Origin: a virus | Reading direction: 5' to 3' (one strand) | Virus record (IMG/VR): IMGVR_UViG_3300025280_000036 | Span: 1-60,023 of that record | DNA length: 60,023 bases | Shown here: one piece after another, positions 38,541-52,999 of the stretch | Layout: each line of letters begins with the position of its first letter | Position numbering within the stretch: the first letter of the stretch is position 1 | The notes under the pieces: generated by a model | Database searches by the model: none | The model's input: only the letters and a program-made list of their open reading frames with translations | Told to the model about the DNA's origin: nothing | Made by a program: the position numbers and the translations under genes

Positions 38541-41500
38541 ATGGGAACGGTTCGTGTAGAAGGTCTTGGCGAGGTTGAGATTGCAGGTGATACGCCTACC
38601 GTAGAGGAAGCAAGAAATATTTATGCATCTTTGCAGGAAAAAAAGTTAGAGCGTCCTCCAGATAAGGCACCTACACCTCCAGATAAACCTCCGGCCCCTC
38701 TTGCTAACGGTGAAGACCCTTCTGTTATAAAAGATATTCTTACTCAGGCCGTTGGTGGCGTTCGTGATGCCACTCAAAGTATTCTTAATTTAACAGCCAG
38801 ACCTGCTGCTTATCTTGAGGGTAAGCTTCCAACCACTGACAAACCGTTCAAACCGTTGACCCTACCTACTATTGCTCCGGCAAAAACCACAGGAGGAGGG
38901 GTAGCCAGAGGGCTTTCCCAATTTTTTGTGCCGTATTTAGGGGCGTTGAAAGTTTTGGGGGTTGGAAAAACATTTATTGGCACCTTGGCTAAGGCTGAAG
39001 GTGCGGCTGTTCTTACTGATCAGGCGGTCTTTGATCCGTTCGATCAAAAACTTTCTGATTTGGTTCAGTCAGTCCCTGCTTTACAGAATCCTGCTACGGA
39101 ATATTTACAAGCTGATGAAGATGATTCTGAGGCTGAAGCCAGATTCAAATTGGCTGTTGAAGGTATGGGATTGGGGGCTTTTGCTACAACTATCATTCAG
39201 TCTTTTAGGGGACTCAGATCACTCAAGAAAGGAAAGACAGAGCAAGGGATCAAGGAAGTTGACAAGGCTATCGAAGCTAGTCCAAAAATAGACCCGGTGG
39301 CATCGCCAAGAGAGGTTCTTGGGGATGACTATGCCGGGAATATACGAGTAGATAAATACAATACCACTGAAGATGTAAAACAGGGGATTCGTGATACTGC
39401 GGAAAAGAACGTGGGTAGGATAGACGAAGCAACACGCGGAACAATCACGACCGATCAATTAAAGGGACTAGCGCGAGAAGTAGGTTTAACTGTTGATGAT
39501 CTTTTAGATCGTGTTACAGGAGAGGCATGGAATGCAGAAGAGATATTAAGTGCTCGTATGATGATGTTAGCTTCTGCTATTAGGTTGCGTAATGCAGGAA
39601 AAGTAGCTTCAAAAACCGGGTTAGATGCTGATATCTTAAAAGTAAAAGATGCTCTTAATCTCCATGTTGGAATCCAAGAACAGGTATCTGGATTAGCTGC
39701 TGAAGCAGGTCGTGCGCTTAGACAATTTCGTCTAATAATTGGTGAAGGCAATGTAGAGGAATTATTGACTGCTGGAGGCGGGAAGAAAGCCATAAAAGAA
39801 ATAGCTGATCGTCTTGCTGTACTTGATCCAGAACTCGATATGGCGGTTTTTAATAATACGGCTAGGGTGCTTAATAAGCCAACCCTCATGGATAAATGGC
39901 TTGAGTTTTGGATCAACGGGTTACTTTCAGGACCGCAAACTCACGCGGTAAATTTTTTATCAAATGAATTAACATCGTTTTGGTCTATCCCAGAACATTA
40001 TCTGGCTGCCGGAATTGGTGCCATAAGAAAAACTCCAGAGAGGGTTACATTAGGAGAGGCTAATCATCGGCTTTATGGATGGCTCAAAGGACATCAGGAG
40101 GGCTGGGGTTTAGCCAAGAAAGCATTTATCACCGAAAGCCCGTCCGATATTTTTTCTAAATTGGAGCTTCCCAGAGAACGAGCAATAAAAGGCACACTTG
40201 GAAAGGTCATAAGATTACCCGGCAGGGCGTTGATAAGTTCTGATGAGTATTTTAAGTCGATTGGTTATCGGATGGAGCTTAACGCGCAAGCCTACAGGAG
40301 TGCTATTAAAGCTGGATTAAATCCGCGTTCAAGAGAATTTGCGGAATTTTTGGAAAAGATTAAAAATAATATCCCTGAAAATAAAAATCAAATAAAACAG
40401 GTGGCAAAAGAATTAGGGATGGGAGTTAGAGAATACAAAGCTCTGAAGAAAAAGATTTCCCTTAAAGCCACAGATAATGCCAGATACCTTACGTTCACTA
40501 AACCCCTTGAAGGCATTAGTGCTGACATTACATCTATACAGGCAAAAGCGCCAATTTCTAGGATGCTCATGCCATTTGTCAGAACTCCAACCAACATAGT
40601 CAGATTTGCCGCTGAAAGAACTCCTCTTGGATTGATGATGCGGGAAACGAAAAACGCCAAAGGAGCAGCAAAGGATGTGCAAATGGCTAAGATGGGGCTT
40701 GCGGCAGGGGCTGGTGCTCTCATCATGTCAATGGCAGGTCAAGGTAAAATAACCGGCTCCGGCCCAACCGATCCTAAAGCGCGCAGAGATATGTTGGATA
40801 CCGGCTGGCAACCTTATTCGTATGTTTATGAAGATGATGAAGGGAAGAAGCATTATTATTCCTACAAACGTATTGAACCGATGGGAATTTTGTTTGGCTT
40901 AACTGCGGATTTTCACGATATTGCTGGAGAAGTTCCAGATAAGGATGCAGATGAAATAGCGGCAGGTATTGTTGCTTCGATAAGCCAGAACCTTACCGAT
41001 AAGACTTTCTTTAAGGGGCTTGGTGATTTTTTCGAGGCTATGGGTAATCCAGACAGGCAGTTCACTGCCTACTTGCAGAATCTTAGCGGAACGATAGTAC
41101 CTTCTATTTTAGCTCAAACCACCAGAACCGTTGATCCTGTGTTAAGAGATACCAGATCATTTTTGAAAAGGATTAAATCGCGTATCCCCGGATGGTCCGA
41201 GACTCTTGAGGCAAGGCGCAATCTATGGGGAGAACGAATCATTCTGAGCGGGGGATTGGGTCCAGATATTATATCTCCTATTTATTCATCAGAATCAAAG
41301 AACGATCCGGTCGCCAATGAACTGGTCAGATTGGATTACCATCCTTCATTGCCGCAACGAACTCAAAGTGGTACAGAAATACCCGACAATTTGTATTGGC
41401 AATTTGTTGAAGACGCTGGCAAACCAGCGCATCAATTACTTGAAAGTATAATGGCACTGCCTGCATGGGAAGCGTTAAACAACAGACCTAGCGAACAAAA

Positions 41501-41693
41501 AGATATAATTAGAAAGGTTATTGATTTAACACGAAAGAACGCCCGACTTAAACTAAGAGTCGCAATGGGAGAATACTTGACTAAACAAGATAAGATTAAA
41601 ATAACAGAACAGTTAAAAATAGAAGGGCATTCTGAAGATAGCGCAGAGCAGTGGATTCGTGAAAATGTCAATAAAAAAACGGCAAGCCGGTAA
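38541..41693 (+). CDS. Large internal virion (DNA ejection) protein
   Basis: 1050 aa, the second largest gene. The N-terminus carries MGTVRVEGLGEVEIAGDTPT and a Pro-rich linker, then hydrophobic segments (FFVPYLGALKVLGVGKTFIG, MGLGAFATTIIQSF) and a large helical region. The middle has FWINGLLSGPQTHAVNFLSN, a pattern I recall from large podovirus internal proteins. The C-terminal 400 residues hold further helices (GLAAGAGALIMSMAG). No lytic transglycosylase motif was found. It likely enters the host with the DNA. Confidence 0.7.
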   Translation: MGTVRVEGLGEVEIAGDTPTVEEARNIYASLQEKKLERPPDKAPTPPDKPPAPLANGEDPSVIKDILTQAVGGVRDATQSILNLTARPAAYLEGKLPTTDKPFKPLTLPTIAPAKTTGGGVARGLSQFFVPYLGALKVLGVGKTFIGTLAKAEGAAVLTDQAVFDPFDQKLSDLVQSVPALQNPATEYLQADEDDSEAEARFKLAVEGMGLGAFATTIIQSFRGLRSLKKGKTEQGIKEVDKAIEASPKIDPVASPREVLGDDYAGNIRVDKYNTTEDVKQGIRDTAEKNVGRIDEATRGTITTDQLKGLAREVGLTVDDLLDRVTGEAWNAEEILSARMMMLASAIRLRNAGKVASKTGLDADILKVKDALNLHVGIQEQVSGLAAEAGRALRQFRLIIGEGNVEELLTAGGGKKAIKEIADRLAVLDPELDMAVFNNTARVLNKPTLMDKWLEFWINGLLSGPQTHAVNFLSNELTSFWSIPEHYLAAGIGAIRKTPERVTLGEANHRLYGWLKGHQEGWGLAKKAFITESPSDIFSKLELPRERAIKGTLGKVIRLPGRALISSDEYFKSIGYRMELNAQAYRSAIKAGLNPRSREFAEFLEKIKNNIPENKNQIKQVAKELGMGVREYKALKKKISLKATDNARYLTFTKPLEGISADITSIQAKAPISRMLMPFVRTPTNIVRFAAERTPLGLMMRETKNAKGAAKDVQMAKMGLAAGAGALIMSMAGQGKITGSGPTDPKARRDMLDTGWQPYSYVYEDDEGKKHYYSYKRIEPMGILFGLTADFHDIAGEVPDKDADEIAAGIVASISQNLTDKTFFKGLGDFFEAMGNPDRQFTAYLQNLSGTIVPSILAQTTRTVDPVLRDTRSFLKRIKSRIPGWSETLEARRNLWGERIILSGGLGPDIISPIYSSESKNDPVANELVRLDYHPSLPQRTQSGTEIPDNLYWQFVEDAGKPAHQLLESIMALPAWEALNNRPSEQKDIIRKVIDLTRKNARLKLRVAMGEYLTKQDKIKITEQLKIEGHSEDSAEQWIRENVNKKTASR

Positions 41694-41713
41694 AATAATC
41701 ACAGGAAAATAAA

Positions 41714-42343
41714 ATGACTACAGGACAAACAGTACCGCCGGGTTATTACGTCAGCAACAGCGCAGACGAGGACGTGTTCTGCGTCACGAAGACCAATAAC
41801 TTTTATTTCAAGAAAGCCCGTGGCAAGAAATGGGCACGTACTGATTCATGGAACTTCGATCATCTGTGTGATGTGGAAACCGTTAACGAAGTGCAGGGTG
41901 TCAGCGGTGATGTGAACACGCACGATGGCCGTGGTCTGGAAGTCAGCGTGTCGGCGCACATCGGTGTCACGGTATCCGACGTGATGAAGTGGCATTATGT
42001 CAACCCGGATGGCAACCAAGCCACGCTGTGGGCTGGCCCTGAAGGCGGACCCGGTAAGGGTGTGAGCATGGATGTGGGTGTGTGGTACGACAAGAACGGT
42101 AACGTTCATATGAAGCTCTCGGCTTCCGGGGTGATCCCTCATTTTGATTTTGGCGGGGAAGTTGTGATCAACCCAAAGACTGTTGAAAACTTAGAGAAAC
42201 CCACAGCAGATGACAAGGCGTTTGCCAAGGGGTTTACCGAGGGTGCCACTCTGGGTATTGCAGACAAGCCACCGAAGGTTCTGACCGAAGGTGTTGCCGT
42301 GGTGGATAAAGTGGGTAAGAAAGTTCTTGGCTGGTTCAAGTAG
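41714..42343 (+). CDS. 209-aa hypothetical protein
   Basis: Starts MTTGQTVPPGYYVSNSADED after AGGAAAATAAA. Beta-predicted segments (GLEVSVSAHIGVTVSDVMKW, MDVGVWYDKNGNVHMKLS) are followed by a helical basic C-terminus (VAVVDKVGKKVLGWFK). No family is recognised. It lies between the ejection protein and the membrane-protein cassette and could be either a virion or envelope-acting protein. Confidence 0.65.
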   Translation: MTTGQTVPPGYYVSNSADEDVFCVTKTNNFYFKKARGKKWARTDSWNFDHLCDVETVNEVQGVSGDVNTHDGRGLEVSVSAHIGVTVSDVMKWHYVNPDGNQATLWAGPEGGPGKGVSMDVGVWYDKNGNVHMKLSASGVIPHFDFGGEVVINPKTVENLEKPTADDKAFAKGFTEGATLGIADKPPKVLTEGVAVVDKVGKKVLGWFK

Positions 42344-42349
42344 GGCGTT

Positions 42350-42613
42350 ATGTCGATAGTCACAGAATCTCCTGCCAATTTTTACGAAGGCTTGTTTATG
42401 AACGAGGGCCATTTCGTTGAATTCACGCTGGGGCTTGACAACCTCGTCTGGGTGAATGAGACCATCGAATCCATCCGCAAGCCAAAGCCTAAAATTATCA
42501 CCAAAATTTACGGCATTAAGGATGCGATAGAATTTCAAAGCAGTCTCATCGATTTTGGCTACCATCACTTACCCGCCTTTGAGTTATCCGAGCAGTCCGA
42601 CTACATCAATTAA
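42350..42613 (+). CDS. 87-aa hypothetical protein
   Basis: Starts MSIVTESPANFYEGLFMNEG; the remainder mixes strands (HFVEFTLGLDNLVWVNETI) and a helix (IKDAIEFQSSLIDFGYHH). No domain is recognised. It is seven bases behind the previous gene, which suggests a shared message. Confidence 0.6.
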   Translation: MSIVTESPANFYEGLFMNEGHFVEFTLGLDNLVWVNETIESIRKPKPKIITKIYGIKDAIEFQSSLIDFGYHHLPAFELSEQSDYIN

Positions 42614-42627
42614 CGGGGCAGACGATT

Positions 42628-43002
42628 ATGGGCGATCAATTCAGCGGCGATCTTTCACGCAATGAAGTGGAGATGGATCTCAGTAAGTTCCTTGAGATTA
42701 TGAAGGACAACTCTGATCTCAAGGATAAGATCCGTGAATTGCAGGGCGCAGAAAAAGTCAACCCGTACCAGAAATGGATACATCTTGCCAAGACCATAGA
42801 TGCTTGGCGCATCTTTCCTCGCGTGTTTGTCGGGGTATATATCTATTTGCTGTACGCGGTGGTGATCTGGTTTATGACCCTTAACGAACCAAACTTGGAA
42901 CAAGCTGGTCTGGTGTCGGTCGTTGTTGGGGCAATGGCGGCAGTGTTTGGAATATACGCAGGCACGTCAGGACAGAGCAAAAAGTTTAAAGGTGAAGGTT
43001 AG
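42628..43002 (+). CDS. 124-aa membrane protein, holin-like
   Basis: A cytoplasmic helical N-terminus (LSKFLEIMKDNSDLKDKIRE) is followed by two membrane segments (FVGVYIYLLYAVVIWFM and AGLVSVVVGAMAAVFGIYAG) and a basic tail. I recall the sequence IFPR.F...YIYLLY.VV.WFM....P...QAGLVS from marine phages as a holin-like membrane protein. It starts a cassette of three membrane proteins directly before the curli genes. Confidence 0.75.
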   Translation: MGDQFSGDLSRNEVEMDLSKFLEIMKDNSDLKDKIRELQGAEKVNPYQKWIHLAKTIDAWRIFPRVFVGVYIYLLYAVVIWFMTLNEPNLEQAGLVSVVVGAMAAVFGIYAGTSGQSKKFKGEG

Positions 43003-43283
43003 TGAACGAAGCCTTTAATCTGATTGCTGATGTTGGGTTCCCGATTGCGATTGCATTGATTGCAGGCTTCTTTATTTTCCTGACCATCAAGTACATTCTT
43101 GAAAGCGTCATCGGGCAGGTCAGCGGTATTCATGTGATCGTCACTGGCTTGGATAACCGTGTGAAAACGATGAACCATGACATCATTCGTTTAGATGCAA
43201 CCATGTGTGCGGTTCTGGGGATTAGACCTGATCTGGGCAGGATAGCTCGGGCTGACGGTAAGGACGATGCTCGGCGTGACTGA
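43002..43283 (+). CDS. 93-aa small membrane protein
   Basis: GTG start overlapping the previous stop. It has one membrane helix (FPIAIALIAGFFIFLTIKYIL) followed by a coiled-coil-like periplasmic or cytoplasmic part (LDNRVKTMNHDIIRLDATM). The arrangement GFPI.IAL..G.F is shared with the next gene, so the two are probably paralogues. Function unknown; it may modulate the holin. Confidence 0.68.
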   Translation: MNEAFNLIADVGFPIAIALIAGFFIFLTIKYILESVIGQVSGIHVIVTGLDNRVKTMNHDIIRLDATMCAVLGIRPDLGRIARADGKDDARRD

Positions 43284-43543
43284 TGGATATCGCAAATGTT
43301 GTCAGCGAGTACGGTTTTCCTATCGTGGCGACGGTGGGTCTGTTGTACATGATTTATTTTATCTGGCAATTCATCACCCATCAGATCAAGAAGAAACTGT
43401 CAGAGGCGAATGTTACTTTGGTGGCACTCATTGACCGGATTCGGATGTTGGACAACGACATCATAAGGCTGCAACAGAAACTCGATACCGTCATTGAATT
43501 GCGGGAAGCAAAGGCGGAACAGAATGAAATGGATAAGGATTAG
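43283..43543 (+). CDS. 86-aa small membrane protein, paralogue of the previous one
   Basis: Starts MDIANVVSEYGFPIVATVGL with one membrane helix (IVATVGLLYMIYFIWQFI) and a coiled coil (LIDRIRMLDNDIIRLQQKL). Shares the YGFPI and the ...R...DNDIIRL pattern with the upstream protein. Its last 20 bases overlap the CsgF start, linking the membrane cassette to the curli genes by translational coupling. Confidence 0.7.
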   Translation: MDIANVVSEYGFPIVATVGLLYMIYFIWQFITHQIKKKLSEANVTLVALIDRIRMLDNDIIRLQQKLDTVIELREAKAEQNEMDKD

Positions 43544-44015
43544 TTTGCTGCTGGTGCTTTCTCCGGCTTTATCTTATTCGTCTGAGTTGGTTCACAAGTT
43601 CGGTAGCCCTAGTTTCAACGGGATCAATCAATCGGCCCATTACCTGACCATTGATGAGCAGGAAAGAACCCGCTCAGAGAAAGTTGCTGCGGATATCCAA
43701 GATGCCTTGGACGAGGCTGAACGTGAGGCGGATAACACCACGCTTGCCAAGTTCCTGCGTAATCTTGAGTCGAGGATTTATTCAACACTCGCCAAGGACA
43801 TTTCAGAATCGCTGTTCAATTACGACAACATCCCCACAAGCGAGAACCCCATCGTCGGGAGAATCAATCTCGAAGGCAATATCCTTACGTGGCTTAACGA
43901 TGGAACCAGCATTACGCTCACCATCGAGGAATGGTTCGACGGGCTTCTGATCTCAACCACTGAGATCGTGATTCCTGTAGGTTCTTTCGGAGGGTGTCTG
44001 ACAGACTGTGAATGA
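43524..44015 (+). CDS. csgF: Curli assembly factor CsgF
   Basis: 163 aa. The start MKWIRISLLLVLSPALSYSS is a signal peptide; the longer frame from 43494 has no ribosome site. The mature N-terminus contains FGSPSFNGINQSAHYL, matching the CsgF hallmark FRNPNFGGNP. A helical region follows and the C-terminal part (PIVGRINLEGNILTWLNDG, then DGLLISTTEIVIPVG) gives the expected beta-rich domain. CsgF binds the CsgG pore and anchors fibre nucleation outside the cell. The end GGCLTDCE adds a Cys pair not typical of E. coli CsgF. It overlaps CsgG by 4 bases. Confidence 0.9.
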   Translation: MKWIRISLLLVLSPALSYSSELVHKFGSPSFNGINQSAHYLTIDEQERTRSEKVAADIQDALDEAEREADNTTLAKFLRNLESRIYSTLAKDISESLFNYDNIPTSENPIVGRINLEGNILTWLNDGTSITLTIEEWFDGLLISTTEIVIPVGSFGGCLTDCE

Positions 44016-44857
44016 TGAAGCACTTATTCTTGTTAGCCGTGTTGCTTGCCGTGGGTTGTGCGCCTATTGGCATGGGCAAAAGAAATGAAGATTGCAGTTC
44101 TCTTACGGCGTGTATTGAGGGTCCGCAGATCGTACCCAGTGCAGCCCAGCAGTTACTAAACCTGCCGCCTCCTAAGAACAAGGCGGTGGTGGCGGTATAC
44201 AGTTTCACCGACAAGACGGGACAACGAAAGTCCAACGACAACCTAGCCAGCTTCAGCACCGCAGTTACCCAAGGCGGTGTGGATATCCTGATTGAGGCGT
44301 TGAAGGACGCAGGCCGGGGTAATTGGTTTGCGGTGGTGGAAAGAGCAGGGCTGGACAGCCTGACCCGAGAACGACAGCTTATCAAGAACACCCGGCAGAC
44401 CTACGCCGGGGAGGGGGAGAATGTCCTCAAGCCGTTGCTCTATGCCGGGTTGATCCTTGAAGGTGGCATTTCGTTTTACGACACGAACCTGCGAACCGGT
44501 GGTAACGGGGCTAGGTTCTTAGGTATCGGGGCGATGAACCAGTACCGCGAAGACAAGGTGACGGTAATTCTGCGAGCAATACTGGTACAAACCGGGGAAG
44601 TGTTGCTGAACGTGACGGCCACGAAAACCATCCTGTCCACCGGCAGGGGCACCGACCTGTTCAGGTTCTACGAACAGGGTACTGAACTGGTTGAGATCGA
44701 GAGCGGCAGCACCGAGAACGAACCGGTGGGTCATGCCGTCAGAGCAGCTATCGAGGCGGCGGTGTACGGGCTGGTGATTCAAGGTCTGGAAAGGCAGGTC
44801 TGGGACTTCGATTATGCTAAACTGGTGCGGGAGGATAACGATGAAAGTTCTTCTTAA
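44012..44857 (+). CDS. csgG: Curli secretion channel CsgG
   Basis: 281 aa, close to E. coli CsgG (277 aa). A lipoprotein signal ends at Cys16 (LLAVGC). VVAVYSFTDKTGQRK, FSTAVTQGG, a long LIKNTRQTYAGEG region, ILEGGISFYDTN, GGNGARFLGIGA and TKTILSTG are the family blocks in order. CsgG forms a nonameric outer-membrane channel for curlin. By comparison with E. coli, the constriction-loop Phe appears to be kept (SFSTAV) while the neighbouring Asn is Ser and the Tyr is replaced; the loop is one residue longer. Overlaps CsgF and the curlin gene. Confidence 0.96.
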   Translation: MMKHLFLLAVLLAVGCAPIGMGKRNEDCSSLTACIEGPQIVPSAAQQLLNLPPPKNKAVVAVYSFTDKTGQRKSNDNLASFSTAVTQGGVDILIEALKDAGRGNWFAVVERAGLDSLTRERQLIKNTRQTYAGEGENVLKPLLYAGLILEGGISFYDTNLRTGGNGARFLGIGAMNQYREDKVTVILRAILVQTGEVLLNVTATKTILSTGRGTDLFRFYEQGTELVEIESGSTENEPVGHAVRAAIEAAVYGLVIQGLERQVWDFDYAKLVREDNDESSS

Positions 44858-45518
44858 ATTGTTGATGCTATTGGTTCCGGCGGTTGTGCTTGGAGCCAAC
44901 AACGATATATACATAACCCAGACAGGAACGGGCCTTACATTGACCATCGACCAGATCGGGGCGAGCAACAAGGTTGGAACCTCGCAGGCCAGAGTTATTT
45001 TGGGTGGCACCAGCATGACCGTTGATCTGGATCAGATCGGTGACACCAACGTCATCGCTGCAAGCATCTTACAAGGCAACTCATCCAGTTGGACATACAA
45101 AGCAACGGGTGATAGCAACGTGGCTACCCTCGCAGTCGGGGCAACCGGGGATTCTGCCAGTTCGGATTTCGACTTCGAGGCCACAGGCGACAGCAACGTG
45201 CTCACGTTCACCCAAGGTGACGCAGCAACAGCCACGGCAGGTAATCAGGATTTCGCTGTGACAGGCACGTCAAACGATCTGAACGTCAAATGCAACGTCA
45301 TCGGCTGTATCAACAACTGGACTGTCTCAGGGAACAGCAACGATATCGATACGTTGCAATCAGGGCGACAGGATCACGACATCACCATATCCCTTACCGG
45401 TTCTTCAAATAATGTTGACGTGGATCAAACCGACACGGCCAGCACCAATGTGGCTAACATCATTTCAACAACGAGCAACGGCGTCATCAACGTGGATCAA
45501 TGCGCCAGTGGCTGTTAA
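44841..45518 (+). CDS. Curlin-like secreted amyloid-repeat protein 1
   Basis: 225 aa from MKVLLKLLMLLVPAVVLGAN, behind GAGGATAACG; a clear signal peptide. The mature part is rich in Gln, Asn, Gly, Thr and Ser with repeats of the curlin pattern, such as LTLTIDQIGASN and MTVDLDQIGDTN, and many GDSN/GNSND units. The C-terminus is VDQCASGC; another Cys pair is in VKCNVIGC. Size and repeat pattern suggest a CsgA/CsgB-like fibre subunit secreted through CsgG. Which subunit role it has cannot be decided. Begins within the CsgG stop region. Confidence 0.8.
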   Translation: MKVLLKLLMLLVPAVVLGANNDIYITQTGTGLTLTIDQIGASNKVGTSQARVILGGTSMTVDLDQIGDTNVIAASILQGNSSSWTYKATGDSNVATLAVGATGDSASSDFDFEATGDSNVLTFTQGDAATATAGNQDFAVTGTSNDLNVKCNVIGCINNWTVSGNSNDIDTLQSGRQDHDITISLTGSSNNVDVDQTDTASTNVANIISTTSNGVINVDQCASGC

Positions 45519-46585
45519 GTTTACTGTTCGTTGGTGCAGCCCATGCGGCAGGCATTGGGGAGATATCTGAGTTAAAGGGTGTCGGTGAGATCACCCGTAA
45601 GGATTCCGACGCTGCATTCCTAGCTGAACTCGCTTCCGATATTTTCTCTTTCGATGATGTCACGACCGGCAACGGTCGCATGGCAATCCAGTTTCTCGAT
45701 TCTTCTACGCTGAAGTTAACAGAGCACTCTAAGGTGGTCATTGATGAATACATCTATGACCCCGATCCCAGCAAGACCAAGCTGGCCCTGAACATGGCGT
45801 CAGGTACGGCCCGGTTTATCACGGGTGCTTTGGCGAGGATCAACAAGAACAACATTTCCATTCGCACCCCCAGTGCCACCATCGCTATCAGGGGCACGGA
45901 CTTCACCACCACGGTTGACGAGCTTGGCCGCTCGCTGATCATCCTGCTGCCTGATCCTGATGGCACCTCCTCGGGGGAGATTTCAGTGACCACATGGTCG
46001 GGGACGGAAATTCTCAACCAGCCCTTCCAGGCCACGATGGTGTCAACCTTTGAGTCACGGCCTACCAAGGCCGTCACCCTTGGCAACATCACGCTTGATC
46101 TGATCGACAACATGCTGATCATCAACAAGCCGCCTGCCATTGTGCAAGCAGAGGCAGAGCAGAGCGGTGAGGTAAAGACCGATCTCGACAGGGATTTCTT
46201 TGAGGATGCTCCCGATCTGGATAAGGATTTTCTTGAGATTGAAGAGGAAATCAGCAGGCTGGATATTGACCTGTTAAGTTTTGATTTTCTGGTGGATTTA
46301 TTAGCAATCGTTGAGACTGGCAGTAAGAAGAAAACCACGTCTGGTGGTGAGCTACAGGGCGTGGAACTGACCGGGATCATCCCCGGTTTTGATCCGACCT
46401 ACCAGACTTATACCTTTGTCGAAGGGATGTATGTGTATTTTGTTCACCAAGGAACCAACACGTTTGATATAGCCTTGGACAAGGAAGCAGCAGCTTACCT
46501 GAGCATAAATTCTTTTGGCGTTCCGATGGAGATAGAGGTCAATGGCGCGGGCGATAATACTATCGTTATTTTTCAGTCTCCTTAG
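45500..46585 (+). CDS. Secreted FecR-domain protein
   Basis: 361 aa. Signal peptide MRQWLLSLLFVGAAHAAG. The FecR domain spans about residues 15-185: GRMAIQFLDSSTLKLTEHSK, ARINKNNISIRTPSATIAIR and RGTDF, the usual FecR signature order. A negatively charged helical part follows (FLEIEEEISRLDIDLL), then a beta-rich C-terminus. FecR proteins sense or relay envelope signals, and FecR-domain genes are commonly next to CHASE2-cyclase genes in bacteria. It overlaps both curlin-like genes (19 bases upstream, 44 bases downstream). Confidence 0.85.
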   Translation: MRQWLLSLLFVGAAHAAGIGEISELKGVGEITRKDSDAAFLAELASDIFSFDDVTTGNGRMAIQFLDSSTLKLTEHSKVVIDEYIYDPDPSKTKLALNMASGTARFITGALARINKNNISIRTPSATIAIRGTDFTTTVDELGRSLIILLPDPDGTSSGEISVTTWSGTEILNQPFQATMVSTFESRPTKAVTLGNITLDLIDNMLIINKPPAIVQAEAEQSGEVKTDLDRDFFEDAPDLDKDFLEIEEEISRLDIDLLSFDFLVDLLAIVETGSKKKTTSGGELQGVELTGIIPGFDPTYQTYTFVEGMYVYFVHQGTNTFDIALDKEAAAYLSINSFGVPMEIEVNGAGDNTIVIFQSP

Positions 46586-47339
46586 TCTGGCACATGCAGG
46601 TGATAACCTGATCACCATTCAGACCAAGGGCAGTGGTACAACCATAACGACCAAGCAGATTGGCAGCAGCAATATCACGGGCGTCTATTGTGGGCTGGGC
46701 AGCTTCGACAATTCACTGGTCAATACTCATAATTGTGATGACGCGACCATCACATCAGTAGTTGATGGTGTATCGAACGTCGTGTACTCGCAATCGGTAT
46801 GGTCAAATCATTCCGATCAAAGCTGGATCACAACCGTTACCGGGACTGACAATTACGCGGTGATCGATATGGATGAATCAGGTAGCACGTCAAGGATCAC
46901 CCAGATTGGCAATGATAATCAGGCATGGATTCTGGGTTCAGGTGTTGACAACGTATACAAAACCGAACAAACCGGCGACGACATGTACGCCAAAATTATC
47001 TCGTTCGCTGATGACAGCGACATCTGGATCACGCAGGAAGGCAGCGGTGATCACAATGCCTACGTCTATAACTCCGGGAGTGCTCATCGCAACGACACCC
47101 GATTGATCCAGAAAGGGTCGGGTAACAAAGATGCCGATGTGTTCTGGTACGGCGCAGACGATGGCGATTTAACGCTTACCCAGCAAGGCAATGGATCACA
47201 TACCTCGCTCATCAAATTTTATACGGACGACTACGATGTCACTGTCGTCCAAAAAGGGACCACCAACAAGGCTTACTCAGCTACGTTTAATTGTGTAAGT
47301 AATTGCGACAAAACCATCAGCATCACGCAACAGAATTGA
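46542..47339 (+). CDS. Curlin-like secreted amyloid-repeat protein 2
   Basis: 265 aa with a signal peptide MARAIILSLFFSLLSLAHAG. The repeats fit the curlin pattern with conserved Gln, Gly and Asn: TTITTKQIGSSN, SRITQIGNDNQAW, WITQEGSGDHNAYV, LTLTQQGNGSHTSL, VTVVQKGTTNKAY and ISITQQN. There are Cys residues in VYCGL, THNCDD and FNCVSNCDK. Compared with the first curlin it has more aromatic residues. Two distinct subunits suggest a nucleator and a main subunit, as in CsgB and CsgA. It overlaps the FecR gene by 44 bases and abuts the cyclase gene. Confidence 0.8.
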   Translation: MARAIILSLFFSLLSLAHAGDNLITIQTKGSGTTITTKQIGSSNITGVYCGLGSFDNSLVNTHNCDDATITSVVDGVSNVVYSQSVWSNHSDQSWITTVTGTDNYAVIDMDESGSTSRITQIGNDNQAWILGSGVDNVYKTEQTGDDMYAKIISFADDSDIWITQEGSGDHNAYVYNSGSAHRNDTRLIQKGSGNKDADVFWYGADDGDLTLTQQGNGSHTSLIKFYTDDYDVTVVQKGTTNKAYSATFNCVSNCDKTISITQQN

Positions 47340-49120
47340 AAATCCTGCTCCCAATTTTGCTGGCGTTGTTGTTGCTGCGGGTGTTCGATCCGTTCCCGGT
47401 GGAGACCCTTAGACTAAAATACTTCGATGCGCTGCTCACCATCAAAGAGCCCGTCCAGAGCAAAACGATTTCCCTGTACAACATCGATGAAGCGGCACTG
47501 GCTGAAGGAGGGCAATGGCCGTGGCCTCGCCAGCAACTGGCGGCTCTCAATGATCAATTGCTTGATGCAGGTGCAGTGGCAGTGGTCTACTCTGTGTTGT
47601 TTCCTGAAACAGATCGATTCGGCGGGGACGCGGAATTTGCCGAGAGCATGGGCCAAGTTCCTACCTTCCTCTCGGCGGTAGCGACTGCCGACACTGACAG
47701 GCAGGAAGGCTGGCACATCGGGGTCACCACGATGGGGCCGGTCGAAGAACACGTTCTGAGCTATCCCGGCATCCTGCCGAATGTTGATGTACTTCAGCAA
47801 GCGGCGGCTGGTACCGGGATCGTCAACACTGCCGCGGAGGTGGATGGGCTGGTGCGGAGGGTACCGATGCTGGTGAAGGTTGGGGAGAGCCTCTACCCGG
47901 CCCTTGGGCTGGATGTGCTGCGTGGGCTGGCGGGTGACCCTTCTTATCAAGTAAAAGCCGCTCAGAGCGGCATACAGACCGTTAGAGTGCCTAATTACAG
48001 CACCATCGAGACCGATAGCTCTGGTAGGGTGTGGGTCGATTGGAACACGACGTTTTCTCCAGAACCCCTAGCAGGCACCATCGTCTTCGTGGGGGCTACC
48101 GCAGCCGGGGTTTCCCCTGTTGTTTCAACCCCAAGACTTGGGATGCATCCGCATCAGGTTCAAGCAAACCTGTTTGAGACCCTGCTGAACGGCACGTCGC
48201 CGGTACGCCCGGACTGGGCGCTGGGTGCTGAAATATTGGTTGTCCTGATTTTTGGCCTTTTCACAGCGTGGTCAGTGCGTTATTTGCCTGTTTTGGTTGT
48301 ACCAGTAGGGGTCATTGGGATCGGCGCTCTAGCGGCCTCTGCCAGCGTCTGGGGCTATCTAAGTTTAGGCATTCTGGTTGATGCTGCATTTCCGGTACTT
48401 TCTAGCCTCACAATCGGTGGAACGGGTGTAGCTCAGAGAATGATCAGTGAATATCGCCAGAAATTGCAGATCAAGGGGATGTTTGGAACGTATGTCAGCC
48501 CCAAGCTGGTTCAGCAATTGGTGGACGATCCATCCTTGATGAAGCTCGGCGGCGATACCAAGACCATGAGTTTTCTGTTTTGTGATATCGTTGGCTTCAC
48601 CCCTATCTCGGAGCATTTCAAAAACAACAACGATCCGCAGGGACTTGTCACCCTCATCAACCGTTTGCTGTCTGCCTTAACCGATGTGGTGCTGTCCCTC
48701 GATGGCACCATAGACAAGTACATGGGCGATTGTGTGATGGCGTTCTGGAACTCACCTGTGGATTGTCCCGACCATGAGGAAAGGGCTGTGACTTGTGCTG
48801 CCATGATGCTGGTCGCGCTTGAACATCTCAATGAGGAACTTGAACTTGAGGGATTACCAAAATTAGGCATTGGTGTCGGGCTTAACACTGGGCCAGCAGT
48901 CGTGGGAAATATGGGGGGCAAGCAGCGTTTCGATTACTCAGCTATCGGGGATAGCGTGAACGTGGCTGCTCGCTTGGAAAGCAGTTCAAGAAAGTATTCC
49001 GAAGATGTTTTGATTGGCGAGGCGACAGCCAAAGCTGTGCCTGAGTTGGTGAAATATTTGGATTCAATTCAAGTTAAAGGTAAAGAGGAACGGTTAGAGG
49101 TTTATACATTGCGTAACTAA
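47336..49120 (+). CDS. CHASE2-domain class III nucleotide cyclase
   Basis: About 594 aa from a TTG overlapping the curlin stop (a second TTG at 47303 gives 605 aa). One N-terminal membrane helix (ILLPILLALLLLRVF) is followed by an extracytoplasmic CHASE2 domain (about residues 20-280), three membrane helices (about 290-380) and a class III cyclase. Catalytic residues are present: metal Asp in FCDIVGFT (about 416) and YMGDCVMAF (about 464), and Asn and Arg in SVNVAARLES. It should make cAMP or cGMP in response to an envelope signal, likely one involving the FecR protein. Confidence 0.93.
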   Translation: MKILLPILLALLLLRVFDPFPVETLRLKYFDALLTIKEPVQSKTISLYNIDEAALAEGGQWPWPRQQLAALNDQLLDAGAVAVVYSVLFPETDRFGGDAEFAESMGQVPTFLSAVATADTDRQEGWHIGVTTMGPVEEHVLSYPGILPNVDVLQQAAAGTGIVNTAAEVDGLVRRVPMLVKVGESLYPALGLDVLRGLAGDPSYQVKAAQSGIQTVRVPNYSTIETDSSGRVWVDWNTTFSPEPLAGTIVFVGATAAGVSPVVSTPRLGMHPHQVQANLFETLLNGTSPVRPDWALGAEILVVLIFGLFTAWSVRYLPVLVVPVGVIGIGALAASASVWGYLSLGILVDAAFPVLSSLTIGGTGVAQRMISEYRQKLQIKGMFGTYVSPKLVQQLVDDPSLMKLGGDTKTMSFLFCDIVGFTPISEHFKNNNDPQGLVTLINRLLSALTDVVLSLDGTIDKYMGDCVMAFWNSPVDCPDHEERAVTCAAMMLVALEHLNEELELEGLPKLGIGVGLNTGPAVVGNMGGKQRFDYSAIGDSVNVAARLESSSRKYSEDVLIGEATAKAVPELVKYLDSIQVKGKEERLEVYTLRN

Positions 49121-49125
49121 AAAGT

Positions 49126-49176
49126 GCCCAGCGTGGTTCGTGCGGGGACCACACTCTGGGCCGTATCCCCGTTTTT
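49126..49176 (+). terminator. Terminator after the curli cassette, with alternative pairing
   Basis: CGGGGA/TCCCCG (49143-49148 with 49166-49171) is followed by five T and should end the plus-strand late transcript. It competes with a second hairpin GCCCAG..GTGGT/ACCAC..CTGGGC (49126-49161), so only one can form at a time, as in attenuators. Confidence 0.65.
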
Positions 49177-49191
49177 ACAATTCGTACATTT

Positions 49192-49230
49192 GAAAGAAAA
49201 TCCTAAAGGGTTGACTTTTAGGATTCTTTC
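49192..49230. terminator. Bidirectional terminator between convergent genes
   Basis: AATCCTAAA (49199-49207) pairs with TTTAGGATT (49217-49225), and GAAAG/CTTTC extends the stem past a two-base bulge. It lies between the late plus-strand operon and the minus-strand methyltransferase gene, whose stop codon is in the right arm. Confidence 0.55.
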
Positions 49231-50141
49231 ATTTCTTCATCAAGAATAAATCTGCCTAAAGCCTCAACCACCTGTGGCACGACAGCATTACCGAGCGACT
49301 TCAGACGCGGTGTGCGATCAGGGCATCCATTGATCACTCTTGGGATTCCTCCAGGTTCGTCCAGCCATCTGGAAACCCCATCAGGAACTCTACAAACGCT
49401 GGATTGAGTTGACCATGAACCTTCTGACGTTCCCCCGCCTCGTTTATCACTTTTGTCGTTAAACTTTCCTGTGAACCCTTTTTCCCTCGGCTCCTGTCTT
49501 GATAGCCGAGTCTCGCTTCGTGGCTCATGGGCGTCGGCCACAGACGAGGATCTCGCACCTGTTGGGAAAGATGGATTTGATGGCGTTCTGCGAGTTTGCT
49601 CGTCATGGCGTGTTTGTAGGATGTTGCTATTGTGTACGCCTCGGCTCGATCCTCGCTGGCGTTTGGCGTTTGCCACAATCCAGACTCGATCCCGCCTGTG
49701 CGGGGCATCGACGGCGCAAGCTGGAACAACAAACGATTGTGTGGCGTAACCCGAATCTTCCAAGTCAGAAAGCACCGTGTCGAGTTCCATGTTGATGATG
49801 CCACTAACATTTTCGCCAACGACCCAAGCTGACTCCACCTCCCGTATGACTCGTAGCATTTCAGGCCAGAGTGCGCGGTCATCTTCCGAGCCTCGCTGGT
49901 TCCCGGCGACACTGAATGGTTGGCAAGGAAATCCACCGCAAACAAGCTGAGTTGCCCCTCTGTATTGTCGTCCATCTAATTCCTCAATATTGTCGTGAAT
50001 CGGTACATCAGGCCAGTGCTTTGCAAGTACCTTGCGACAGAACGGATCAGTCTCGCAAAATGCCACTGTCTCCATCCCAGCACGTTCCAAGCCAAGGCTA
50101 AAGCCGCCGATGCCTGAAAACAAGTCAAGCACGGTCATCAT
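49218..50141 (-). CDS. C5 cytosine-specific DNA methyltransferase (Dcm-like)
   Basis: 307 aa; start MMTVLDLFSGIG overlaps the upstream zinc-ribbon stop. All main C5-MTase motifs are present: I (DLFSGIGGFSLGLE), IV with the catalytic Cys (GGFPCQPFSVAG, about residue 72), VI (GENV), VIII (APHRRDRVWIVA) and X (LKSLGNAVVPQVV). It transfers a methyl group from SAM to cytosine in a specific DNA site and could protect phage DNA from host restriction. The target-recognition part is short and is overlapped by a second open frame (49334-49975). Confidence 0.96.
   Translation of the reverse strand: MMTVLDLFSGIGGFSLGLERAGMETVAFCETDPFCRKVLAKHWPDVPIHDNIEELDGRQYRGATQLVCGGFPCQPFSVAGNQRGSEDDRALWPEMLRVIREVESAWVVGENVSGIINMELDTVLSDLEDSGYATQSFVVPACAVDAPHRRDRVWIVANAKRQRGSSRGVHNSNILQTRHDEQTRRTPSNPSFPTGARSSSVADAHEPRSETRLSRQEPREKGFTGKFNDKSDKRGGGTSEGSWSTQSSVCRVPDGVSRWLDEPGGIPRVINGCPDRTPRLKSLGNAVVPQVVEALGRFILDEEMKES
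49334..49975 (-). CDS. Open frame of 213 codons inside the methyltransferase gene (possible overlapping gene)
   Basis: This is on the same strand in a different frame and wholly inside the methyltransferase gene. The product reads MDDNTEGQLSLFAVDFLANH and ends GQLNPAFVEFLMGFPDGWTN, a sequence type I recall in databases under DNA methylase names, with TWKIRVTPHNRLLFQLAPS and GLWQTPNA also familiar. Whether it is translated or only an open frame kept by methyltransferase conservation cannot be told from one sequence. No ribosome site is obvious. Confidence 0.35.
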   Translation of the reverse strand: MDDNTEGQLSLFAVDFLANHSVSPGTSEARKMTAHSGLKCYESYGRWSQLGSLAKMLVASSTWNSTRCFLTWKIRVTPHNRLLFQLAPSMPRTGGIESGLWQTPNASEDRAEAYTIATSYKHAMTSKLAERHQIHLSQQVRDPRLWPTPMSHEARLGYQDRSRGKKGSQESLTTKVINEAGERQKVHGQLNPAFVEFLMGFPDGWTNLEESQE

Positions 50142-50317
50142 TTAATGCTTTTTCCTATGAACACTGGTGCCATTGGCGTTTTTTTTCGATCTATTTCAGG
50201 GCCAGCCCAGAGCCAATGGATGCGCCCGCAAGCCTTGCAACGCACATATTCTCCGACAACTTTCAAATCCCTTTGGACCTTGTGGTCCTTGGTTTCACCC
50301 CCGCAGGAACATTGCAC
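50138..50317 (-). CDS. 59-aa zinc-ribbon protein
   Basis: GTG start behind GGGGAT. The product reads MQCSCGGETKDHKVQRDLKV and has C-S-C near the start and VRCKACGRIHW in the middle, four cysteines in two pairs (CxC and CxxC), the pattern of a zinc ribbon. Its stop overlaps the methyltransferase ATG (ATGATG), so translation is coupled. The frame is too short for standard calling. The role is unknown; a small ribbon can assist DNA recognition. Confidence 0.7.
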   Translation of the reverse strand: MQCSCGGETKDHKVQRDLKVVGEYVRCKACGRIHWLWAGPEIDRKKTPMAPVFIGKSIK

Positions 50318-50342
50318 TATTGATCCCCATCAGCTAAATAAT

Positions 50343-50648
50343 TTAATAATCGATTAGTTTTTTTGCCCTGTGCAGAACGTCATTGAATTCTTTCTGATGA
50401 TTGCCTGTATCTGAGTAACTCATCATCTCATACGCTTCGATCAATTCATCGAGGGTTTTTTTCAACTCATCGATCTCTTTCTCGTATTCGGCGAACAGAT
50501 TAATAGGTTTCCAATCCCTTAAAAGTTTTTCAATTTCTTCGTATCGTTGTCTTTTAATAGACCTGATCCTAGCGGCACTACCTATACCGCTCACTGTCGA
50601 AGGCGGTACTTCCTTACGCTTTTTTTCTGGAGGATTGAGCCAGTACAT
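50343..50648 (-). CDS. 101-aa basic/coiled-coil hypothetical protein
   Basis: Start taken at MYWLNPPEKKRKEVPP after GGAGGATCG. It is basic at the start, then helical (YEEIEKLLRDWK, EKEIDELKKTLDELIEAYE). No domain is recognised. It sits between the zinc-ribbon gene and another small early gene with tight spacing, so all are likely made from one leftward message. Confidence 0.65.
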   Translation of the reverse strand: MYWLNPPEKKRKEVPPSTVSGIGSAARIRSIKRQRYEEIEKLLRDWKPINLFAEYEKEIDELKKTLDELIEAYEMMSYSDTGNHQKEFNDVLHRAKKLIDY

Positions 50649-50650
50649 TT

Positions 50651-50878
50651 TCAACGATCCTCCTCCCAAAACGCGATCAAATCTTCTGGCTTTGCAGCCG
50701 CCACTTCGTGTAGCTCAGACGATACAGGAAGCTCAAAAAAGAAATCAGTCTGGACCGCTTCCAAAACATCTGCCCAGTATGCCCGCATATCGTCTGGCAA
50801 CGTGGGCCGATCAAGAATTTTTTGAACAGCATCGATACGGCTTTGCTTCAATTCTGCTACCAAGGATCGTTCAATCAT
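50651..50878 (-). CDS. 75-aa hypothetical early protein
   Basis: Start MIERSLVAELKQSRIDAVQK follows GGAGGAGAGC. It is acidic and helical (MRAYWADVLEAVQTDFFFEL), ending FWEEDR. No family is recognised. It lies two bases from the start of the next downstream gene. Confidence 0.65.
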   Translation of the reverse strand: MIERSLVAELKQSRIDAVQKILDRPTLPDDMRAYWADVLEAVQTDFFFELPVSSELHEVAAAKPEDLIAFWEEDR

Positions 50879-51147
50879 GCTCTCCTCCATACTCTTACCC
50901 CCCGTGAGCCACCTTCAACCACCGAACGCATGGTCAGCATCGAGCCGTGCATTCGTTTCAGGTAGGCCATTCTGTTCGACAACACACGATAAGCGTGTGT
51001 GCTAGGCAACACGCCGCGAAAAAAAATACTGTCGCCGGGTTCCAGCTTACGCAGCAAGCCGAACGGGTGACCGGCATGGAATCGTCGCGGCGGCAGCGGG
51101 ATGTTACGATCAATGCTCGGTGGCGCAAATGGCGGGTCATCACTCAT
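50875..51147 (-). CDS. 90-aa small protein related to the one at 53899-54159
   Basis: Reads MSDDPPFAPPSIDRNIPLPP, GLLRKLEPGDSIFFRGVLPS and ends with SVVEGGSRGVRVWRRA. The order IPLPP, PGDSI and G.R.WR matches the 86-aa protein nearby and a small phage family (DUF7303-like) that I recall with a conserved I.KG.P.P.....P...M..GDS start and a G.RVWR end. DNA- or protein-binding is guessed, not shown. Confidence 0.7.
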   Translation of the reverse strand: MSDDPPFAPPSIDRNIPLPPRRFHAGHPFGLLRKLEPGDSIFFRGVLPSTHAYRVLSNRMAYLKRMHGSMLTMRSVVEGGSRGVRVWRRA

Positions 51148-51431
51148 CGGGTCTTAGGCAAAAGCCTGTATTCGTAAAGCCCTCGCCCAGCGTTTCCACG
51201 CCGTCTACGCTCGACCGTGTGAGCGCCAAACCGCGGTTTACGCAAGTGGCGTAATTGAGCAGAGACCGAAGGCGAAGGGGCGTGAGTCGCGCTCGCAATC
51301 TCAGCCAAAGTGCGCCATTCCCTGTCGGACATCAGCATGAATATCCGCTTGATCTGTCCCGTCAGCCGACTGAAATCCAGTTCGGGCTGATAATCCGGCC
51401 CATCGAAATGGGTTTCAGGTAACCTTTCCAT
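51144..51431 (-). CDS. 95-aa winged-helix DNA-binding protein
   Basis: The core RIFMLMSDREWRTLAEIASA and SVSAQLRHLRKPRFGAHTVE reads as a winged helix: helix, turn, recognition helix (SVSAQLRHLRK) and wing (HTVERRRRGNAGRGLYEYRL). Such proteins are common in phage replication modules as small transcription regulators. It overlaps the next gene by 4 bases. It could control the early unit. Confidence 0.75.
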   Translation of the reverse strand: MERLPETHFDGPDYQPELDFSRLTGQIKRIFMLMSDREWRTLAEIASATHAPSPSVSAQLRHLRKPRFGAHTVERRRRGNAGRGLYEYRLLPKTR

Positions 51432-51555
51432 CGCTAACCTCCCGCCAATATATTGAGTTGCAGGTCAGACAGCCGTTTTGCTGGAACACATGCCCCCGCT
51501 CTCCCGCACGATCCGACCAGATTGCGCCGCAACGGACGCATTCCCATTGCCGCAA
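51415..51555 (-). CDS. 46-aa zinc-ribbon protein
   Basis: Reads MRQWECVRCGAIWSDRAGER then FQQNGCLTCNSIYWRE from a TTG start; a longer frame to 51684 overlaps the upstream SSB-like gene. The pairs CVRCG and CLTCN form a zinc-ribbon pattern. It directly follows the SSB-like gene's stop, and overlaps the winged-helix gene by 17 bases. Function unknown. Confidence 0.6.
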   Translation of the reverse strand: MRQWECVRCGAIWSDRAGERGHVFQQNGCLTCNSIYWREVSDGKVT

Positions 51556-51556
51556 G

Positions 51557-51928
51557 TCAGAATGGGAAATCGGTATCGGCTGCTTCTGTTGTGGCTTCAG
51601 GGGCCGTGACCGTGGTTGTTTGTGCAACGTCGCCTTCCTCAAATAAATGGTTGTGTTCGTTGCCGTAGTACACCGAACTTGCAATCCTGAAATACTTGCT
51701 GCCGTCTTCCTTGGCCGTGTTCAACCACGCGCTCAAGTTGATGCGCGGTCCTTCGTCCGGGTTCTGGCCGTCCTGCGGGAAAGCGTTGTTACGCAACAGC
51801 ACGATAAGCGTTTTCAGCATGTCTTCCGTTACGACGATATGGCCCCTGTAAGGGGGTTGCCGATTGCTGGTGGTGGCATCCTTGTTGCGCCAGATGCCGC
51901 CCTGATTACTGCTAGGGAATTTATCCAT
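51557..51928 (-). CDS. SSB-like protein with acidic/aromatic C-terminal tip
   Basis: 123 aa: a beta-predicted core (YRGHIVVTEDMLKTLIVLLR, INLSAWLNTAKEDGSKYFRI) then a flexible Ala/Thr/Glu region ending DTDFPF. That tip resembles the DDDIPF tail by which SSB proteins recruit partners. It is encoded next to an annealing protein and a nuclease, which fits a single-strand DNA-binding role. The OB-fold is inferred only. Confidence 0.55.
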   Translation of the reverse strand: MDKFPSSNQGGIWRNKDATTSNRQPPYRGHIVVTEDMLKTLIVLLRNNAFPQDGQNPDEGPRINLSAWLNTAKEDGSKYFRIASSVYYGNEHNHLFEEGDVAQTTTVTAPEATTEAADTDFPF

Positions 51929-52769
51929 CGGTGGTTTCTCCTGTGGTTTGATAGGTGTGTTGCAGTTGTCTTAACTCTTCGACAGACATTTGTCTCAGAG
52001 GCTCGATGCGCTCATTGAACGCTTTGATTTCGTTCTGGTAACCGCGGTTATACAGTTCAAGCAAGGTCTTGCGGTTGCGTTTGGTGAATTCCTCGATCCA
52101 CCCGGCAGCCGTCTTGGGGTCTCCAGCTTTGGCTGGAGTGCCTTCCGGCGGCAGGGCAAACATCACGATGGTGACGTAGATGAACTCCAGCACCTCCTTG
52201 ATGGTGTCCAGTGTCACGTCAACGTCAACGTCAATTTTCTTTTCTATCGTCATCATTCTGTCCTCAAGCGTCCATTTTTGGCCGCTAATAATTACCGCCG
52301 CTGCTGGTTTGACTTTGCTTACAGGCGGGGTGGTTTTTTTAGGTGCAGGAGCTTTCGCTTTTTCGTTGATCGCATGATGCACTTCATCAAAGGAAGCGTA
52401 GTTGCCGCCGCCGAGGCCACAGGCAGACAAACTGCGCCCAATCGAACTTGTAAGTGTGTTTTCGACACACGAAGTCGAATTAACTGGCCCACTACCTCGG
52501 AACTCCTCGGCAAAATCATTGGCAATAACGCGCCATGCACCATTTACAAATACACTAATAGTTGTTTCAGCCAATACCTTTGTTTCATCGACCACATGAA
52601 TCGTAGAAATAATTCTGCCATCTTCTCCATAGGCTTCCCGAAACGCCTGTACTCGCGTATGCACTTCGGCGTATAGCTTGCCCCTGATGTTGACCTTGTT
52701 TTTGTCTGGCAGGTCAGCCATGTTTTTGACCGCGCCGAGCAGTCGATCTTGGTTGTAGTCCTCACTCAC
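51921..52769 (-). CDS. ERF/Sak-type single-strand annealing protein
   Basis: 282 aa. The segments RGKLYAEVHTRVQAFREAYG, an ISTI strand set, NSTSCVENTLTSSIGRSLSA and LGGGNYASFDEVHHAI match the ERF/Rad52-like annealing family; the ...E..TS.IGR.L...G...YAS pattern is the usual signature. The C-terminal 150 residues are lower in complexity and helical. It anneals single-stranded DNA in phage recombination, helped by the nearby nuclease and SSB-like protein. Confidence 0.8.
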   Translation of the reverse strand: MSEDYNQDRLLGAVKNMADLPDKNKVNIRGKLYAEVHTRVQAFREAYGEDGRIISTIHVVDETKVLAETTISVFVNGAWRVIANDFAEEFRGSGPVNSTSCVENTLTSSIGRSLSACGLGGGNYASFDEVHHAINEKAKAPAPKKTTPPVSKVKPAAAVIISGQKWTLEDRMMTIEKKIDVDVDVTLDTIKEVLEFIYVTIVMFALPPEGTPAKAGDPKTAAGWIEEFTKRNRKTLLELYNRGYQNEIKAFNERIEPLRQMSVEELRQLQHTYQTTGETTDG

Positions 52770-52999
52770 GTCATTGACTCCCTCATTGATTTGGTGATGA
52801 TGTCGGCGATTTCGTAAACCGCCAGCTTGTCGAACAGCGTCATAGGTATTTGGGTTAGCGGTCTGCCGAGCATCGTGAACACCACCTGATCGCCTTCAAT
52901 CCTCAAGCGCAGGTTGGATTGTTGAAACTGTGGCAAGCCCCACAAGCCCAGAATCTTGCGGGTCACGCTGTCCAGCATGTCGAATTCAAGCGTCGGCAT
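52766..52999 (-). CDS. 77-aa hypothetical protein
   Basis: Start taken at MPTLEFDMLDSVTRKILGLW; overlaps the nuclease stop by 14 bases. It has a beta-predicted part (SNLRLRIEGDQVVFTMLGRP) and a helical end (LFDKLAVYEIADIITKSM). No family is recognised. The gene lies between the nuclease and the annealing protein genes, so a recombination role is likely. Confidence 0.65.
   Translation of the reverse strand: MPTLEFDMLDSVTRKILGLWGLPQFQQSNLRLRIEGDQVVFTMLGRPLTQIPMTLFDKLAVYEIADIITKSMRESMT

Follow-up and report, generated by a model that had tools for sequence, protein, structure and literature searches.

The curli of Escherichia coli are produced by the csgBAC and csgDEFG operons, whose CsgG, CsgF and curlin-repeat components recur in the locus that we analyse here, a cassette of six genes at positions 43524-49120 of a viral DNA record (IMG/VR IMGVR_UViG_3300025280_000036; its full 60,023 nucleotides are called the window below). 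Compared with the E. coli system, the window cassette forms one operon, has genes for a FecR-domain protein and a CHASE2 adenylate cyclase added, and comes without a CsgE gene detectable in the window. Similar cassettes are already known from phages, as reported in three papers. Clusters of csgF and csgG were described in pelagimyophages in 2020, and 'sibling capture' was proposed as their role (PMC7029224). In 2022 a role in lysis was proposed for the cluster of phage Melnitz, in which csgA and csgB were said to be missing (PMC9004378). A further study of 2022 reported the full set (CsgF, CsgG, CsgA/B, FecR, a second curlin and a cyclase) from nine podovirus genomes and from myoviruses, detected this type VIII secretion system module in the ocean viromes of all 65 stations and saw it expressed in metatranscriptomes, and noted that the viral gene order resembles that of Alphaproteobacteria (PMC9599517).

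The window follows these systems closely. The HTVC023P-type pelagipodoviruses of PMC9599517 have, like the window, one or two upstream genes followed by CsgF, CsgG, CsgA/B, FecR, a second CsgA/B and a cyclase; they represent a related lineage (53-57% identity in the large terminase, TerL) but one with a different G+C content (37% in 023Pt_psg01, 51% in the window). Pelagibacter phage HTVC008M (KC465899), a myovirus listed under Kyanoviridae, shows the same order including both small upstream genes (tm93 and tm86 below, or the tm pair), with a CsgG 46% identical to that of the window; its record annotates CsgF, CsgG and a CsgB, and leaves FecR and the second curlin as hypothetical proteins. Methylophilales phage Melnitz (MZ577097) likewise carries the full cassette with the tm pair (locus L195, 50118-56876); contrary to the statement on csgA and csgB in its paper, two curlin-repeat proteins are annotated in the deposited record, alongside FecR and the cyclase. 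Since the cassette has been published in podoviruses and myoviruses, and at least 588 stretches among 600 listed encode a CsgG relative, the viral curli cassette is neither new nor rare, and the greater completeness of a podovirus set, which an earlier note on this DNA had presented as a novelty, does not stand as one. The window is an added instance in a new phage of marine type and probably in a new host setting; what goes beyond the published accounts is a likely bacterial model of the operon, the set of parts that travel together, a phage-only companion pair and the tail of the FecR protein.

All six genes lie on the plus strand, each overlapping its neighbour, in the order csgF, csgG, curlin 1, FecR gene, curlin 2 and CHASE2 cyclase. 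Profile searches with Pfam back the earlier identification of every one of them, with curlin 1 alone falling below its cut-off. CsgF (43524..44015), which would act outside the cell as partner of the pore, matches PF10614 (E 6.5e-7; 30 bits against a cut-off of 25.8) and, by eye, carries a signal peptide. CsgG (44012..44857), the putative lipoprotein secretion pore of the outer membrane, matches PF03783 at E 5.5e-55 and shows a lipobox by eye (Cys16); a profile built from 22 phage CsgG proteins matches the solved CsgG chains at E 5e-67. Curlin 1 (44841..45518), a predicted secreted repeat subunit, contains six G-x-x-N...Q motifs against 0.72 in shuffled sequences (none of 2000 shuffles reached six), and its AlphaFold2 model consists of regular all-beta repeats (predicted local distance difference test, pLDDT, 84; predicted template modelling score 0.82). 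Curlin 2 (46542..47339), the second such subunit, passes its cut-off (PF07012, 21.3 bits against 20.7); the motif scan found one motif in it against 0.69 in shuffles, a result without separation. The FecR gene (45500..46585) matches PF04773 only (E 1.2e-11), and the cyclase gene (47303..49120, its TTG start uncertain) combines CHASE2 (PF05226, E 6.4e-36) with a class III cyclase domain (PF00211, E 2.9e-18). By homology, a curli-type secretion and amyloid cassette thus appears well supported, and we hold with moderate confidence that a phage here carries an operon for curli (type VIII) secretion, that fibres would be exported by it, and that the FecR protein would be part of the fibre system.

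The place of the FecR protein in this system is suggested by the way in which the genes co-vary across 55 non-redundant loci with all eight genes, tm pair included (145 entries, 65 complete). The distance matrices of csgF, csgG, cur1 and fecR correlate with each other at rho 0.83-0.87, so that FecR tracks the fibre genes as closely as CsgF does. The correlation of cur2 with these four is 0.73-0.75, that of the cyclase is 0.66 with csgG and 0.60 with fecR, and the two tm genes follow each other (0.82) more than tm86 follows csgG (0.34). In a bootstrap over loci, whose intervals are rough since pairwise distances are not independent, the fecR-csgG correlation exceeded fecR-cyclase by 0.13-0.43 and tm86-csgG by 0.38-0.67. 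Single comparisons agree with this picture: between the window and locus L004, identity is 88% for cur1 and 84% for fecR, and falls to 49% for tm86 and 36% for the cyclase, and the same was seen against L005, L007 and L118. Cyclase discordance of this degree occurs in these four pairs only, all of which involve the window, and one further pair (L173-L176) is discordant for tm86 only. The cyclase therefore appears to be an accessory more loosely tied to the cassette and swapped more freely than FecR.

These figures bear on a different view, in which FecR and the CHASE2 cyclase form a sensor pair, as the earlier note had called them, with FecR reporting on the status of envelope or fibre and cyclic AMP (cAMP) reprogramming the infected cell. 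Such a pair would fit the position of the two genes, which are adjacent or one gene apart in the phages and in three bacterial loci, as well as the upkeep of the enzyme: among 88 relatives the two metal-binding Asp are kept in 88 and 87, and the base Lys in 85. The cyclase has the marks of class III (CHASE2, two metal Asp, the Lys base residue, Asn/Arg), and ATP is its likely substrate because the active site is complete with the Lys base residue. Yet six of the 88 cyclases have Ser in place of the usual Asn, FecR co-varies more tightly with CsgG (rho 0.87) than with the cyclase, and the window-L004 comparison shows a similar FecR beside a divergent cyclase. This weakens the sensor-pair idea, which we regard as unlikely. 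Publications retrieved on FecR, CHASE2 and adenylate cyclase included none on curli, as judged by titles and the beginnings of abstracts.

Selection points to the upkeep of the whole set. Because dN/dS (omega) of window pairs is saturated (infinite synonymous divergence, dS, as also for tm86 in all pairs tested), selection was taken from pairs of relatives outside the window. In pairs with dS of 0.3-3.1, omega was 0.02-0.16 for csgF, 0.02-0.08 for csgG, 0.04-0.09 for cur1, 0.03-0.11 for fecR, 0.03-0.17 for cur2 and 0.09-0.22 for the cyclase; near-identical pairs, in which omega rises to 0.73 on few changes, were excluded. All six genes are thus under purifying selection in those relatives, and both curlins, FecR and the cyclase are kept in 57 of the 63 phage loci that extend at least 7 kilobases (kb) beyond csgG (a set redundant between scans).

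The FecR protein itself has a signal peptide by eye. At E<=0.1, Pfam finds PF04773 alone in it, with neither an N-terminal cytoplasmic anti-sigma domain nor a membrane helix; an anti-sigma domain would also have no room, because beta structure starts near residue 18 of the AlphaFold2 model (mean pLDDT 65; mostly 77-90 over residues 21-190, poor after). The FecR domain aligns with 5ix9, a structure entitled 'cell surface anchoring domain', over 74 of 76 residues (Z 7.1, below the safe level of the tool). The pattern [IVLF]x[IVL]xQ was found within the last 16 residues of 76 out of 79 distinct FecR tails, compared with a mean of 5.3 and at most 15 when tails were shuffled, and it is scarce in control tails (2/69 cyclases, 1/107 CsgG, 1/93 CsgF). 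A profile of the curlin C-terminus matched five FecR tails, four of them at E 2.6e-7 to 1.2e-5 and one at 0.0045, with the best control at E 0.81. We infer that the FecR protein is most likely fibre-associated, a third secreted part that ends in a curlin-like strand, rather than an iron-responsive anti-sigma regulator.

Several observations weigh against this interpretation of FecR and of the cassette as a whole. The structures nearest to the FecR domain are anti-sigma signalling domains, above all that of PupR (Z 15.4, root-mean-square deviation 2.5, 136 residues aligned, 7% identity), and a signalling role is possible on the basis of the model. The curlin-tail profile passes the inclusion threshold in just five of 124 FecR proteins, the window's not among them; a longer motif in the window protein is reached by a fraction of 0.20 of shuffles, within chance; and the FecR tail of a bacterial Hyphomonas locus is devoid of the short pattern. 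Curlin 1 scores 17.1 bits against the curlin_rpt cut-off of 20.7, and a comparison of its model with the PDB library brought up nothing significant (best E 0.89). Cultures infected with Melnitz did not clump in the conditions employed (PMC9004378), and apart from these cultures we found no experiment on phage-driven amyloid extrusion in the portions of the literature consulted. Finally, a search of the record, which is possibly incomplete, gave no CsgE match at E<=1. The earlier note had listed CsgE, CsgC and CsgD as absent: for CsgE this holds up, and neither CsgC nor CsgD is named when Pfam is run on 65 of the 78 called open reading frames (ORFs), with no search aimed at either singly. As CsgE was not found, the pore may be ungated; CsgE is described as not essential (PMC7029224).

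The missing CsgE gate, together with the anti-sigma fold of the FecR domain, would also suit an option raised in PMC9599517, namely that an open CsgG pore aids the uptake of nutrients or cofactors with FecR as an iron sensor. An uptake pore would, however, make the curlins or CsgF superfluous, the FecR domain comes without an anti-sigma part, and FecR co-varies with the fibre genes, so that we consider this option very improbable.

Bacterial relatives offer a view of where the operon may have come from. A pattern-based CsgG-profile scan of 84,980 species genomes, surely incomplete, returned 23 loci. The tm pair is present in thirteen of them (L054-L059, L062, L064, L065, L067, L069, L071 and L075), which look like phage contigs that ended up in metagenome-assembled genomes (MAGs), under labels such as Bacteroidota, Synechococcus, Planctomycetaceae, Rhodobacteraceae and Pelagibacter; phage cassettes in such bins are a trap for surveys of bacterial curli. 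Beside these, a 1.5-kb record that bears the name of a Salmonella phage (OR851715.1, 265-948) encodes a CsgG relative and is perhaps host DNA. Three loci read as bacterial, more precisely alphaproteobacterial, with ordinary bacterial genes as neighbours by eye: L063, on a 705-kb contig of Hyphomonas sp. TMED17, and L060 and L061, in Caulobacteraceae MAGs. They encode csgF, csgG, curlin(s), fecR and cyclase in one direction, and differ from the window in that all curlins precede FecR (two in L060 and L061, one in L063) and in the absence of tm93 and tm86 at E<=1e-3. The presence of fecR in these loci rules out FecR as a novelty of the phage operon, and because all three carry both FecR and cyclase, these two genes probably came with the operon from bacteria. 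By this comparison, phages probably took over a ready-made alphaproteobacterial operon that already held both, which was later passed between phages. Loci like L060 may already be among those figured in PMC9599517.

Bacterial csg operons with FecR and cyclase are rare. In an order-level survey CsgG was present in 27 of 200 genomes, with phage-type FecR (E<=1e-5) only in G003 (the centre itself) and in G031, whose two FecR matches lie more than 1 Mb from CsgG. A class-level survey had FecR matches at E<=1e-20 in 45 of 385 genomes, counted irrespective of nearby CsgG and many of them in far longer frames.

The phage cassettes are preceded by two linked genes at 43002-43543 that the earlier note passed over. 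Both encode members of phrog_18771 and are paralogues with one hydrophobic segment each: tm93 (43002..43283, plus strand; 93 amino acids, E 2.2e-28), with the segment at residue 11 and a coiled-coil-like tail by eye, and tm86 (43283..43543, plus strand; 86 amino acids, E 1.6e-27), which overlaps csgF by 20 bases and weakly matches holin family phrog_4898 (E 6.6e-4), as do seven of 14 members of the family in all. A tm86 profile found nothing below E 0.26 among PDB sequences, and neither protein has a HisKA or HATPase Pfam domain at E<=0.1; by position, they are probably the published 'histidine kinase, sometimes two'. Linkage was examined in 130 phage loci, redundant between scans and selected for likeness to the window CsgG. 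Among the 117 with csgF and at least 1 kb upstream, two tm genes precede the cassette in 95, one in 20 and none in two, so that at least one accompanies 115 of 117 testable cassettes; in L190, one of the two exceptions, the pair lies downstream on the other strand.

A reverse search first suggested that the pair is a general phage gene without a tie to curli, as 57 of 160 pair loci (the best 80 of 581 and the best 80 of 549 from two scans) had no csgF, csgG, cur1 or fecR inside 3 kb. This was rejected: in 50 of the 57, equal to 47 distinct records (seven were dropped for contigs under 7.5 kb), CsgG was present in 26 records, and in all five large contigs among these that were inspected the entire cassette converges on the pair in opposite orientation. 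Of the remaining 21 records, 11 are shorter than 15 kb and ten longer, and at least three of the ten (G620, G623 and G628) carry the pair at least 5 kb inside and have no CsgG, so that the pair can occur without curli. Pfam found no CsgF in the eight longer records tested. In G620 (L362, 7515-7727) a csgF profile matches a 33-residue stretch directly after tm86 (5.9 bits, E 0.003, six-frame set), possibly a remnant of a lost cassette; the same profile gave no such stretch in G623. With its absence from the bacterial loci, the pair appears to be a phage addition, predicted to lie in the inner membrane.

The weakly holin-like tm86, and the position of the cassette behind genes for small membrane proteins, could favour the proposal of the Melnitz authors that CsgG and CsgF form a gated pore timing lysis (PMC9004378), with the curlins as passengers. 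The window phage, however, has a lysis cluster of its own at 27188-28439, some 15 kb from the cassette, with two Rz-like spanin-family proteins and an endolysin-like protein, and the curlins are retained under purifying selection. Since lysis genes lie elsewhere and curlins are conserved, and with the Melnitz record itself annotating two curlin-repeat genes, FecR and a cyclase, a pure lysis pore seems quite improbable. The spanin-like genes and endolysin likewise make it unlikely that weakening of the outer membrane for lysis, one of the functions first suggested for the cassette, is its main role.

We return to the curli operon with FecR in the fibre. The cassette lies behind virion genes, which suggests late expression. 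Judging from signal peptides seen by eye, the host Sec system would export curlin 1, curlin 2 and the FecR protein; the lipoprotein CsgG would form a pore in the outer membrane, capped on the outside by CsgF, and the curlins would assemble on the infected cell as polymers of amyloid type. The FecR protein would most likely anchor or nucleate the fibre via its C-terminal strand, the inner-membrane cyclase would probably raise cAMP upon a periplasmic cue, and the tm pair would sit in the inner membrane. The most likely benefit would be the holding together of virions and neighbouring cells in dilute water, the published idea of 'sibling capture', with the exclusion of other phages a close second.

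That the cassette is an assembly chimera or bacterial contamination might be suspected from the several phage-type cassettes in MAGs of unrelated bacteria. Against this, the separate viral record L003 matches the window across both junctions, at 99.94% over 35012-52101 (nine gaps) and 100% over 52066-53817, and the six genes, at 0.57-0.66, have a third-position G+C inside the range spanned by three phage genes (0.34-0.71). The near-identity of L003 over 35.0-53.8 kb argues for a cassette continuous with phage genes, as first described, and the probability of a chimera is practically negligible. A second record, L012, from a different IMG dataset number, matches 35016-49028 at 99.9-100%; both records have small frame breaks in the cassette stretch that look like assembly errors. 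A bacterial-only origin of the window is ruled out by its terminase, portal, head, tail-spike and internal virion genes.

The ends of the window (1-1645 and 57940-60023) are colinear near-duplicates in three pieces at 99%, 87% and 88%. Because they nearly repeat each other, the window probably represents an almost complete genome of some 58 kb, as if circular, with two strain variants at the join. Its TerL is closest to those of 023Pt_psg01, HTVC027P, DSL-LC04 and HTVC023P, and this likeness, with the portal and internal virion proteins, points to a distant HTVC023P-type podovirus; in a 104-row tree, whose long branches are flagged by its own checks, we used the window's close placement alone. 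The G+C content is 50.6%, compared with 36.6% for 023Pt_psg01 (39-kb stretch) and 34.9% around the HTVC008M cassette (20 kb), so that the host is probably not SAR11; other cassette contigs reach 0.50 (L015-L017, L028, L053). A GroES-like co-chaperonin gene (13914-14357, phrog_3188) lies within the virion gene block, and 023Pt_psg01 also has an annotated one.

Upstream of the cassette, an internal virion protein gene (38541-41693) is followed by five small genes, among them one for a 124-amino-acid membrane protein of holin-like shape by eye (42628..43002, plus strand; phrog_10198, a PHROGs family of unknown function, E 4e-21). An 11-pair terminator-like stem (49199..49225, plus strand) follows the last gene, from a consensus scan that counts 19 such sites in the window against 13.9 in shuffles, and an opposite-strand gene (49218-50141), a cytosine methylase by eye, converges on it; one C-5 methylase is present among the scanned ORFs. 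A promoter scan of the window found no excess (14 against 15.6).

Taken further, viral curli might form a subtype of type VIII secretion in its own right, remodelled by phages, in which a block for the fibre (CsgF, CsgG, both curlins and the FecR-domain protein as third fibre component) stands between two modules that are exchanged separately, a swappable cyclase and a phage-only pair of small inner-membrane proteins working with fibre export; we offer this tentatively, as a proposal on the doubtful side of even. The three-block structure shows which genes to move together, assays of the FecR protein would better treat it as fibre material than as a regulator, and tm93 and tm86 are unstudied membrane proteins that come into view as part of a system. 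With a genome of 51% G+C among its carriers, the module would seem to extend beyond phages of SAR11 and OM43. If the proposed function is true, amyloid extruded by the host would change infection in dilute water, with cells and virions clumped or rivals shut out.

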